DNA of 64,000 nucleotides from Spirochaetes bacterium GWE1_32_154. GTDB taxonomy: Bacteria > Spirochaetota > GWE2-31-10. Each line of letters begins with the position of its first letter. Position 1 is the stretch's first letter. A model generated the notes under the pieces. That model ran no database searches. It had not been told where the DNA came from and worked only from the letters and a program-made list of their open reading frames with translations. The stretch covers positions 62,928-126,927 of the forward strand of contig MIAY01000025.1 in assembly GCA_001829315.1 (NCBI GenBank), written 5' to 3'. The position numbers and the translations under genes were made by a program. Below, piece after piece: positions 31,744-35,572 of the stretch.

Positions 31744-31853
31744 TACTTAATACCCCATGCATTATATATATCAAAAAATATTAAAAAAATCTAATTAAAT
31801 TAGTGTTATTGCAAAACATACACCAGTTTATAGAAAAAAATGAAATTTTATTA

Positions 31854-31993
31854 GAGCTTCTTGCAAAAATACTCTTTTTTATCTCGAATTTTTTCAAGAA
31901 GCTTTTTATAATGCGATTTTATCGCATATGGCGAAAACATAAAAAAAGTACCCTTTTTTTTCATCGAGTACTCTTTATTTTTGTAAAAGCCTC
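31854..31993. mobile_element. MITE-like inverted-repeat element, copy A
   Basis: 140 bp bounded by imperfect 17-bp inverted ends: GAGCTTCTTGCAAAAAT (31854-31870), and ATTTTTGTAAAAGCCTC (31977-31993), which match at 13 of 17 positions when the second is reversed. The left part is itself a hairpin (arms 31855-31870 and 31888-31903) with loop containing ATCTCGA. A second hairpin, ATGCGAT-TTT-ATCGCAT, lies at 31911-31927. No protein is credibly encoded. Same layout as the element at 35375-35563. It lies directly upstream of the leaderless lipoprotein promoter. Confidence 0.6.
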
Positions 31994-32022
31994 ATTACAT
32001 ATAATTTTTTTTCACCATAAAT

Positions 32023-32051
32023 TTGACATATTAATTAAAAATTAGTATTAT
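32023..32051 (+). promoter_or_regulatory. strong promoter giving a leaderless lipoprotein transcript
   Basis: TTGACA (32023-32028), a perfect -35 hexamer, lies 17 bases before TATTAT (32046-32051). The start point predicted 7 bases after the -10 element is 32058, exactly the A of the lipoprotein ATG. No Shine-Dalgarno sequence exists in the intervening ATCAAT. The combination argues for a leaderless mRNA. Confidence 0.65.
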
Positions 32052-32057
32052 ATCAAT

Positions 32058-33266
32058 ATGAAAATATTCAAACGTTTTTTATTGTTAATTATTGTTTCTT
32101 TATTTTCCGTCTCATGTGCTGATCCTGAAAGTGAGATTGGTGAAGTGAGTATTTTATCGGTAAAACCAGTCGGAACTCATGATATTCAACCATTAGAAAC
32201 TTCAGATCAGTTAAATGTAGAAGTTGTTGCAGTACTTGATAAATTAACAGACTCTGCATTAACTACTTCTACGTGGATAATCGAAAAGATTAAATATGAT
32301 ATAGATGATGAATCTCTGAAAACAGAAAGTATTATATCTTCTGAAGACTCTGAAACTGCATATTTTCTTGAAACATCAAAAGATGGTTTAACCGCTTTTA
32401 TTTCTTTTTATCATCACGGAAGTTACAGAGTAACTTACTCAGTTACTGATTATCAAGTTGTAAAGAATTATTCTATCATTATTAAAAATGGTGAACCGGA
32501 ATTTCCTCATTTGTTTTTATCATTAAATTTATATGAAAATGAAAAAAATAAAATTCTTGAGTATCGGGGGGCAATCAATTTGGAAGTTTCCGGTGAAAGT
32601 GGCGTAAATATAATTAATGATTTGACGGTCGATAGAGTTGGTTCTTCATGGTATGATACAGATATTTCGTTAAATCCATTAAAATCTTTTACTATTCAAT
32701 CTGGTATTCCAGTTGTATATGATGATAATACTAATGATATACAATTATTATCAATTGATCAAATATTAAAAATATCAGATGAATCAGGCGAGTTGACAGA
32801 AATTAAAAGTCAGATTGATGTTACCGGTAATAAACTTACAATTGATTTAATTGATAAAAAATCATTTATTTTGTCTGATGTTTATACTGTTTTGCATTAT
32901 TGGATAAAAGGGGAGAAAGATGATGAGTATAAGTTTCTTACTAAAACAATTAAAGGTGATGAATATCCTGTTTTTGAAGAAATAGAAGATGATGGAGTAC
33001 ATTCTGCAAAGCTCTTTATCGGAAATATTGGTGTCTTTTACAGTAATACCAGGACATTTACTTATTTTAGTGTTGAAGGTTTAAGAAATTCATTTGTTGA
33101 TATAAAAAATATCAGACCATTTCCAAGTTTACCTTTTGGATATCTGGTAGGTAAATTAGGTGACTCGGGAATCCCTTTTCCAATTGGTGCTTCTTATGAA
33201 TTTATTGAAAAAACAAGTGAACCCGTTTATTATTATGATGGTGAGGAATTTGTTTTAAATAAATAA
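32058..33266 (+). CDS. lipoprotein of unknown function
   Basis: 402 residues with a lipoprotein signal (LLIIVSLFSVSC) and an acidic mature start (ADPESEIGEV). The mature part is beta-rich with many Asp, Ser, Thr and Ile residues; residues 40-160 look like an Ig-like fold (GLTAFISFYHHGSYRVTYSV). I do not recognise the family. Expression appears to use the leaderless promoter at 32023-32051, with a structured element on each side (31854-31993 and 33288-33340). Gene, promoter and elements look like a small self-contained unit. Confidence 0.75.
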   Translation: MKIFKRFLLLIIVSLFSVSCADPESEIGEVSILSVKPVGTHDIQPLETSDQLNVEVVAVLDKLTDSALTTSTWIIEKIKYDIDDESLKTESIISSEDSETAYFLETSKDGLTAFISFYHHGSYRVTYSVTDYQVVKNYSIIIKNGEPEFPHLFLSLNLYENEKNKILEYRGAINLEVSGESGVNIINDLTVDRVGSSWYDTDISLNPLKSFTIQSGIPVVYDDNTNDIQLLSIDQILKISDESGELTEIKSQIDVTGNKLTIDLIDKKSFILSDVYTVLHYWIKGEKDDEYKFLTKTIKGDEYPVFEEIEDDGVHSAKLFIGNIGVFYSNTRTFTYFSVEGLRNSFVDIKNIRPFPSLPFGYLVGKLGDSGIPFPIGASYEFIEKTSEPVYYYDGEEFVLNK

Positions 33267-33287
33267 TAATTTCAAAAAAAATTATAG

Positions 33288-33340
33288 AAAGCTTCTTGCA
33301 AAAATATTCTATATTATCTCGAATTTTTGCAAGAAGCTTT
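33288..33340. repeat. short form of the inverted-repeat element, copy B (also a terminator candidate)
   Basis: An 18-bp perfect inverted repeat, AAAGCTTCTTGCAAAAAT (33288-33305) with its complement at 33323-33340, surrounds a 17-base loop containing ATCTCGA. It lies between the convergent lipoprotein and ddl genes and could terminate both. The arms and loop match the left hairpin of copy A. Confidence 0.65.
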
Positions 33341-33367
33341 ATATTTAAAATGGTAAGTATACTGATA

Positions 33368-34510
33368 TTAGATTTTAGAGCTTTTCATTTTATTTCCATT
33401 TTTTGATAGTTTGTTTAAAATTGTTGAATCATAACGCAGGATTTTATCTTTTCGTATTGTATTTTGGTTGATTGTTTCTTCTATAATAGTCGTTATTAAA
33501 TCTTTGAATTGCAGATTATTATATTCCCATAGATAAAAACTAAATGAACCGGGAATTGTGTTAACTTCATTAACAAATATGTGTTCTTTATTTTGATCTA
33601 ATAAAAAATCTACTCTTATAACACCATTACAGTCCATTGTTTTATAAATTAGTTTCGTATATTCTGAAATATGTTTTTTTATCTCATCTGATACTTCAGC
33701 AGGGATTTTTCTTCCCATGCTACTCATACCTTTGGTTTTTCCATTTGAATTAATATATTTATCTTCAAATGATAAAAATGTATCCCATCGAACCGGTTCT
33801 TCAAGTACCGAGGTTAATACTTCTTTATTTTTCATAATTGCAGAGCAATTGATTTCTACAGAAGGGCTTATTCCTTTTTCTATAATAATTCTATAATCGT
33901 ATTGACTTGCAATAGTAACTGCATTTATAAGCTCATTTTCATTATTCGCCATTGAAATCCCAATTGAAGAGCCAAGATTAGCCGGTTTAACAAAAACAGG
34001 ATAATCAAGGGTGTAATGCACTTTTTTTATCATTTCGGTCTTGTTTGATAGCCAATCATCTTTAGTAAACCAAATATATGGTAGAATAGGTAAGTTTATG
34101 CCTTGGAAAATACTTTTCATGACTATTTTATCCATGCCCGCTGCAGAACCAACAACTCCACTTGACGTGTAGGGTATGTCCAGAAAATCAAATATCCCTT
34201 GTAATCTTCCATCTTCTCCAAAATTACCATGACATGCGACAACTATAGCATCAAATTTATTTAATATATTTTTTTTATTTTTTCGATCTAAATCAGGGGT
34301 GAATTTTTTTCCATATTTTTTTTTCCAGTCTTTATAAATAGAGATGTCCCGTAATTTATCGCCGTAAAACCAATCTCCATCTTTGTCTATATACAATGGG
34401 GATGCTTTATAAAGATTTGTATCCATATTATCCAGGATTTGTTGCCCTGTAATAATTGAAACCTCATGTTCTACTGACATACCACCGTAAATTACTGCAA
34501 TATTTTTCAT
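33368..34510 (-). CDS. ddl: D-alanine--D-alanine ligase
   Basis: 380 residues, ATP-grasp fold, joining two D-Ala for peptidoglycan precursors. NIAVIYGGMSVEHEVSIITG opens the protein (binding Glu in EHEVS). VACHGNFGEDGRLQGIFDFL near residue 90, YTSSGVVGSAAGMDK, FVKPANLGSSIGI and the C-terminal FVNEVNTIPGS with catalytic and metal-binding residues are present. Length suits Ddl of the A/B type. AAGGGG precedes ATG. Copy B of the repeat sits just past its stop codon. Confidence 0.95.
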   Translation of the reverse strand: MKNIAVIYGGMSVEHEVSIITGQQILDNMDTNLYKASPLYIDKDGDWFYGDKLRDISIYKDWKKKYGKKFTPDLDRKNKKNILNKFDAIVVACHGNFGEDGRLQGIFDFLDIPYTSSGVVGSAAGMDKIVMKSIFQGINLPILPYIWFTKDDWLSNKTEMIKKVHYTLDYPVFVKPANLGSSIGISMANNENELINAVTIASQYDYRIIIEKGISPSVEINCSAIMKNKEVLTSVLEEPVRWDTFLSFEDKYINSNGKTKGMSSMGRKIPAEVSDEIKKHISEYTKLIYKTMDCNGVIRVDFLLDQNKEHIFVNEVNTIPGSFSFYLWEYNNLQFKDLITTIIEETINQNTIRKDKILRYDSTILNKLSKNGNKMKSSKI

Positions 34511-34691
34511 ATAATCCCCTTTTTTAAAGACATTACTGTCTAACTTATTTTATTAAAAAAATCAATAGAACCCATGATTTTTTTAGTTTCATTTTTTCTA
34601 TATTGGTGTTTAATCATCATATTATAGCTTTCTACTGATTAAGTCTGTTCAAATATTTGCTTTTATTGTATTGATATACTATGAGGTTTTT

Positions 34692-35366
34692 ATGGTATAT
34701 AAAAAGTTTTTTAAATTGAGAGCGTTACCGGGGGGCGTTTTATTTTTTATTTTTTTCGCTACAACATTATATCGGGTAAATACAATAGATCAGCAATTAC
34801 TTGCTGATCAGGTACAGGTTTTACTCATTCAAAGTTACGGGAGACTATCAAATCTTTCCCCGATTGAAAAAATTGTAATAGAAATGGGGCGTGCAACTTT
34901 TGTTGATAATGTTAGAATCTGGAGACTATATTATAATGACATTTCATTAATTCCGATAAAACTTCATCCGCAGATTAAAAAAGTGTCAAATATTATTCAT
35001 AAATATGGTGATGAAAGTGAAGCGTTTTTATTTGATGTTTATTTAAAAGAACTGACATTTTTAGGGTATAGAAATATAGATTATTATTACCAGGCATTAC
35101 TTGCAATGGATTCTTTAAAGGATACAAATATTAGTCTTGAGGATATTGAATATGCAGTCTCATCACCACAGTTTTATAAGAAGAAAATCGAATTATTTGA
35201 AAGAGAGGCTGTATTAAAAAAAGAGATAAGGCTAATTATGAATTCTGAAAAACTTAAAAGACGATTAGGAATTTATATTTTCTTTTATGATTTTTTGAAT
35301 AAAATAAGAGATAAAATTATAGCGAGTGATCTTGAATATTCTCATAAACGATTAATGAAAAAATAA
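34692..35366 (+). CDS. hypothetical protein with an N-terminal signal/anchor helix
   Basis: About 224 residues from ATG 34692 (GAGG upstream); TTG 34671 is in frame but has no ribosome-binding site. Residues 14-29 (GGVLFFIFFATTLYRV) are a signal peptide or anchor. The rest is helical and charged (ADQVQVLLIQSYGRLSNL, EREAVLKKEIRLIMNSEK). I do not recognise a family. It ends 9 bp before the start of repeat copy C. Confidence 0.6.
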   Translation: MVYKKFFKLRALPGGVLFFIFFATTLYRVNTIDQQLLADQVQVLLIQSYGRLSNLSPIEKIVIEMGRATFVDNVRIWRLYYNDISLIPIKLHPQIKKVSNIIHKYGDESEAFLFDVYLKELTFLGYRNIDYYYQALLAMDSLKDTNISLEDIEYAVSSPQFYKKKIELFEREAVLKKEIRLIMNSEKLKRRLGIYIFFYDFLNKIRDKIIASDLEYSHKRLMKK

Positions 35367-35374
35367 ACTAAAGT

Positions 35375-35563
35375 GAGGCTCTTGCAAAAATCATAATTAC
35401 ATTATTTTTCCTCCCGCTGATACGCAATAAAATTGCGTTAAGCAGTGTTTCGGGGTACCGAAAACTGTACCTGGTCGTAACGAGTACATTACTGCTCGGG
35501 CATGCAACCTGAGTAGCCTCATTCAAAAATTCGAGATTTAAAGAGTGTTTTTGAATGAAGCTC
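35375..35563. mobile_element. MITE-like inverted-repeat element with several hairpins, copy C
   Basis: 189 bp with ends GAGGCTCTTGCAAAAAT (35375-35391) and GTTTTTGAATGAAGCTC (35547-35563). In order it holds ACGCAAT-AAA-ATTGCGT (35422-35438), CAG/CTG-closed stem with CGG-GGTA-CCG (35443-35467), CTGCTCGGG paired with CCTGAGTAG through two G-U pairs (35492-35516), and CATTCAAAAA/TTTTTGAATG (35520-35557) with loop starting TTCGAGAT. A 65-codon minus-strand frame across it has no support as a gene. G-U pairing suggests the RNA form matters. Confidence 0.6.
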
Positions 35564-35572
35564 AAGTTTTTA

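Follow-up and report, generated by a model that had tools for sequence, protein, structure and literature searches.

Three copies of a structured inverted-repeat element, A, B and C, lie within 3.7 kb of the window, by which we mean the whole 64,000-nucleotide stretch of DNA that was analysed (Table 1). The two open reading frames between the copies, 32058–33266 (402 aa) and 34671–35366 (231 aa), gave no match in Pfam; the first has a lipoprotein-like start. An earlier sequence-only reading of this DNA had placed A and C exactly to the base, while its coordinates for B (33288–33340) are off by one base. Its account of the loop ATCTCGA/TCGAGAT, of the related ends of all three copies and of an internal hairpin that reads ATGCGAT/ATCGCAT in A and ACGCAAT/ATTGCGT in C agrees with what we found. 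A and C do share their ends as it described, but the end sequence is present three times in each, not twice. Likewise B is a short form with one hairpin, but short forms proved to be mostly left-end/right-end fusions or truncated long copies.

Table 1. Element copies in the window and their parts (TSD, target-site duplication)
Feature	Position	Strand	Remarks
Copy A, long form	31854–31993	+	140 bp; 138-class with extra A7GTACCCT7 hairpin
Copy A, left TSD	31850–31853		ATTA; identical to 31994–31997; 4-bp duplication is the family rule
Copy A, arm 1	31854–31870	+	left terminal inverted repeat; PWM match
Copy A, arm 2	31888–31904	-	internal inverted end copy; pairs with arm 1 around ATCTCGA loop
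Copy A, internal hairpin H2	31911–31928	+	ATGCGAT...ATCGCAT
Copy A, arm 3	31977–31993	-	right terminal inverted repeat, GAGGC type
Copy A, right TSD	31994–31997		ATTA
Copy B, short form	33289–33339	+	51 bp; single hairpin, degenerate; TAGA vs TATA flanks
Copy C, long form	35375–35563	-	189 bp; two extra hairpin modules
Copy C, left TSD	35371–35374		AAGT; identical to 35564–35567
Copy C, arm 3	35375–35391	+	right-type terminal inverted repeat GAGGCTCTTGCAAAAAT
Copy C, hairpin end	35514–35563	-	arms 1 and 2 around ATCTCGA
Copy C, right TSD	35564–35567		AAGT

The element is abundant beyond the window. Its core, CTTGCAAAAAT, has 352 exact matches across the 4.03-Mb genome, where a reversed-pattern control has 1, and the hairpin module has at least 144 genome sites within 3 mismatches against 0 for the control. 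A 17-mer end profile with the consensus GAG(C/G)(C/T)TC(T/A)TGCAAAAAT, which describes 17-bp terminal inverted repeats (TIRs), matched 376 sites against 1 in reversed sequence within a genome sample of ~810 kb (~20%); about half of the sample, including 390 kb of contig C1, was picked regardless of copies. These controls bear directly on the notion that the three forms are hairpins or terminators without kinship, alike only through the composition of the genome: the genome is AT-rich and the stems do contain A and T runs, but reversed sequence gives 0–1 matches where the real sequence gives hundreds, which refutes that explanation and leaves it practically no probability.

The sequence-only reading had proposed counting copies in the genome and had named two outcomes that would speak against it, a lack of further copies and an explanation of the matches by a known terminator or repeat class. 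The counts dispose of the first, and as to the second, Rfam at gathering scores returned no match for the elements, its one match in the window being a tRNA at another place. Neither exact-pattern scans of GTDB r220 and IMG/VR nor blastn against plasmids and phages gave a match to the element, and a literature search for spirochaete MITEs, with subscription journals and ISfinder outside its range, found no description of the family. The family seems not to have been described before; it is abundant, and its host belongs to a spirochaete order that has been little studied.

Two layouts dominate among the copies. Short copies carry two inverted ends flanking a 16-bp loop region with ATCTCGA, 50 bp in total, and long copies carry a third copy of the end, following the order 50-bp hairpin (arms 1 and 2), H2, H3 and arm 3. 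Arm 3 is inverted relative to arm 1, and arms 2 and 3 are direct repeats. H2 is of the ATGCGAT/ATCGCAT or the ACGCAAT/ATTGCGT type, and the H3 hairpin type is AAAATCAAG-TACT-CTTGATTTT. Long copies measure 118–120 bp, or 138–140 bp with an added A7GTACCCT7 hairpin, and other sizes of about 146, 157, 164, 181 and up to 212 bp carry further hairpins at recurrent places: next to H2, inside the H3 loop, or in the stretch that separates arm 2 from H2. When the extra modules were sought outside the element as independent mobile hairpins there was no convincing match, all convincing matches being in element copies or in copies that had lost their right end. The H1 type of a copy shows no association with its H2 type (P = 0.51) but is associated with its H3 type (P = 0.0007). 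The internal hairpins are exchangeable modules, which copies have probably exchanged or gained over time.

Position 4 of the end distinguishes left from right, with GAGC at arm 1 in 55 of 66 long copies and GAGG at arm 3 in 62 of 66. This position also separates two kinds of short copy. Those with a duplication (at most 1 mismatch) comprise 11 C/G left/right hybrids and 3 C/C copies, and those without one comprise 4 hybrids and 11 C/C copies (Fisher P = 0.009). In the C/C short copies without a duplication, what is left is the arm 1–arm 2 hairpin of a long copy whose right part is gone. Since arms 2 and 3 are directly repeated, a deletion between them would yield a 50-bp form with both true termini, and this is the route by which the short form with both termini retained may have been produced.

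The sequence-only reading had also suggested looking for target-site duplications, and these have a constant length. Of 66 long copies sampled, 48 have exact 4-bp direct repeats at their flanks, where 2.1 would be expected from shuffled right flanks; for short copies the figures are 14 of 44 and 1.1. A and C (ATTA and AAGT) are among the copies that have them. Other repeat lengths gave little signal, and no longer repeats are present. The duplicated sites are AT-rich and without a fixed sequence. In the large stretches, 34 of 37 copies lie between ORFs although ORFs cover ~91%, an over-estimate since they were called mechanically, and the orientation of the genes neighbouring these 37 copies is like that of all intergenic gaps. 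Mean identity among copies of the 118 class is 84.5%, but two pairs of copies reach 99% although the members of each pair lie at separate loci, and some of the dispersal has therefore probably happened recently. Empty sites, which had been suggested as a further check, were less forthcoming: a systematic search, in which most other 'spanning' matches were the queried site itself, gave one partial paralogous case, a ~150-bp repeat at about C1:440978–441133 and C1:443099–443255, where the element follows AGTA in one copy only. This repeat is itself not a MITE; its two copies are 2 kb apart, and each adjoins a MITE copy.

The duplications also decide a question raised by the palindromic arms. Together with a GTAG stretch that stands beside the inner arm in many long copies, the arms recall REP/BIME-type elements, whose mobiliser would be a tyrosine (HUH) transposase, TnpA-REP, that works on single-stranded hairpins. 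To our knowledge, HUH elements leave no target-site duplication, and we rejected this origin on the exact 4-bp duplications at 48 of the 66 long copies; in addition, the GTAG tag is absent at the true termini, and both termini are inverted repeats common to a DDE-type IS described below, so that such an origin is extremely improbable.

The stems themselves could be the reason for which the elements persist. The consensus long form folds far better than dinucleotide shuffles (z = -7.2; z = -3.8 for copy C), and paired changes occur at four positions (H1 5/46, H2 58/72 and 61/69, H3 92/99), where Watson–Crick pairing is seen in 45–48 of 48 copies against 26–29 expected. These joint changes indicate that stems are kept as stems, although the same pair counts could arise from a few module types copied as blocks, so that the counts alone are no proof of stem function. 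Folding and compensatory changes in several stems would suit elements kept chiefly for a role as structured RNAs or transcription terminators, their spread by transposition being secondary history; but the gene context is like the intergenic background, with no clear enrichment at convergent gene ends, Rfam offers no match, and the compensatory changes fall in few module types, possibly copied as blocks. On this evidence we regard retention mainly as RNA or terminator as quite improbable. Also unlikely is the proposal that selection has shaped the three-end build of hairpin modules, in which the hairpin end and internal GTAC-loop stems might serve as DNA or RNA structures during transposition or in its regulation and new hairpins might be added preferentially into or beside existing loops, giving nested growth.

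The family is a MITE family, with every testable defining feature in place: the elements are 50–212 bp long, non-coding and dispersed, have 17-bp ends and a fixed 4-bp TSD, and share their ends with an IS. The idea of a non-autonomous MITE that lacks a transposase, first put forward from the window alone, is thereby upheld by dispersed copies, TIRs, 4-bp TSDs, mostly intergenic sites and IS-matching ends.

A transposase with matching ends, for which the sequence-only reading had proposed a search, exists as a TIR-linked DUF772 remnant in this genome and as intact relatives in other spirochaetes. Neither Pfam nor NCBIfam had a match for the 29-aa transposase start, and the relatives were therefore located by genome search. 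In G001, a genome from a different genus of the same family, a MITE end precedes an ORF starting MKSIAETLGDVQ, and a search with this ORF start led to the remnant on contig C40 of the element's own genome (L184). In the remnant, the end GAGCCTCTTGCAAAAAT is followed by MKSIADLLGDKRELFEF and, after a frameshift, by a DUF772 segment (PF05598, E = 2e-8); the remnant is truncated, being cut off by unrelated IS21-like sequence. At about 1650–2390 of this locus the DUF772 remnant runs into IS21-like coding fragments (IstA-type, by eye), and the presence of both on C40 indicates that transposon remains have piled up there; a tyrosine-recombinase-like ORF lies just upstream. In a second, shorter fragment in the same genome (C31:17740), a TIR is followed by MKSIADLLDDKQELFEFYEEY and a stop, with another end copy adjoining. 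Neither this genome nor the 8 others searched from its order yielded an intact autonomous copy.

Intact transposases of ~370 aa with DUF772 and DDE_Tnp_1 domains (PF05598 and PF01609) and the same MKSI start are found in distant Spirochaetota, relatives that place the host in this phylum. An intact 1480-bp IS in Sphaerochaeta sp. UBA6084 (L199) has the inverted repeat (IR) GAGGCTCTTGCAAAAT and the duplication CGTT/CGTT, and copies of the 1480-bp IS with this IR in genome G357 have the duplications TATG/TATG and TAGG/TAGG. The terminal repeat common to MITE and IS is GAGGCTCTTGCAAAA(A)T, and both duplicate 4 bp. The MITE ends recur on the remnant L184 and, in nearly the same form, on the intact L199, L189 and L195; the intact relatives of 1.48 kb are in Sphaerochaeta-type genomes. 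Since the protein of the remnant is only ~33–34% identical to the intact spirochaete transposases, the link to the intact IS is made by TIR sharing and not by close protein identity.

An inverted partial copy of the terminus is already present at the 5′ end of the intact IS (GGCTCTTGC-AAAATA-GCAAAAGCC), and its counterpart in the own-genome remnant is TTGCAAAAA-TAG-TTTTTGCAA, and the hairpin end of the MITE may therefore most simply be seen as an elaboration of the left end of the IS. The G001 genome has a MITE of its own, 97 bp long, in which the same ends, the arm-2 copy and the third end surround a different interior; two genera thus have this layout in common. MITEs of this G001 family, 88–98 bp long, were noted at L156, L162, L165, L168, L170, L172, L176 and L182, some with exact 4-bp duplications.

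Taken with the TIRs, these comparisons make it very probable that the MITE family descends from a DDE-type IS with a DUF772 + DDE_Tnp_1 transposase (IS1182/IS5-like) and has been mobilised by it in trans. Such an IS is the likely mobiliser; mobilisation in trans and the direction of descent are what we infer from the same comparisons, and the local autonomous IS would now be dead. In the origin we propose, the inverted partial end copy inside the transposase-5′ end of the parental IS would have become the near-perfect palindrome of the MITE, and copies would later have exchanged or gained internal hairpin modules.

Against NCBIfam, the intact transposase relatives match IS1182 best (87.5 and 80.3 bits, below the cut-off of 270), followed by IS5_4 (74 and 67 bits, below 140) and IS5_3 (63–68 bits, below 110). 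As these scores lie under both the IS1182 and the IS5 cut-offs, we call the parental IS IS1182/IS5-like and a member of neither. With the IS1182 family it shares a DUF772 transposase and a 4-bp duplication, but it scores under the cut-off, its DDE part fits DDE_Tnp_1 best and its transposase has ~370 aa; with the IS5 family it shares the DDE_Tnp_1 domain, but again falls under the NCBIfam cut-offs. IS1272 is usually placed in the IS1182 family. It replaces stem-loops without duplication (PMC5678879), a behaviour not seen in the present elements, whereas ISPse1 of the IS1182 family, with a 16-bp IR and a 4-bp duplication, fits the parental IS (PMC3281130).

What is new in this MITE family is its three-end, modular-hairpin build. 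RUP, Correia/NEMIS and similar MITEs are mostly simple two-ended elements, whereas the present element has a hairpin end, a plain end and exchangeable internal hairpins. All are short non-autonomous repeats dispersed in bacterial genomes (PMC2229807). The nearest analogue of the modular interior is BOX of Streptococcus pneumoniae, which is likewise high-copy, non-coding and modular, with fixed ends, a variable interior, TIRs and duplications on insertion (PMC3049150). BOX, however, has tandem boxB copies between boxA and boxC (PMC3049150), unlike the distinct, partly nested hairpins in set slots, the third end copy and the DUF772 IS ends seen here. The present MITE is tied to a parental IS whose remnant persists in the same genome, the same three-end layout surrounds the same IS ends in two genera, and the more than 100 mosaic, modular-hairpin copies form a natural data set on module gain and loss in bacterial MITEs.

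Two other transposase genes or groups came to light. The genome's only DDE_Tnp_1 match, an IS982-like gene (L061, C36:78935–79429), was rejected as a mobiliser because it is without matching ends; its transposase ORF looks intact. Genome G310 contains a related IS of 1.2 kb in four copies that are almost identical (L188, L192, L194 and L196); its ends are different (AGAGCCGATTTCAAAATCAA), and a weak stem may lie inside its transposase-5′ end.
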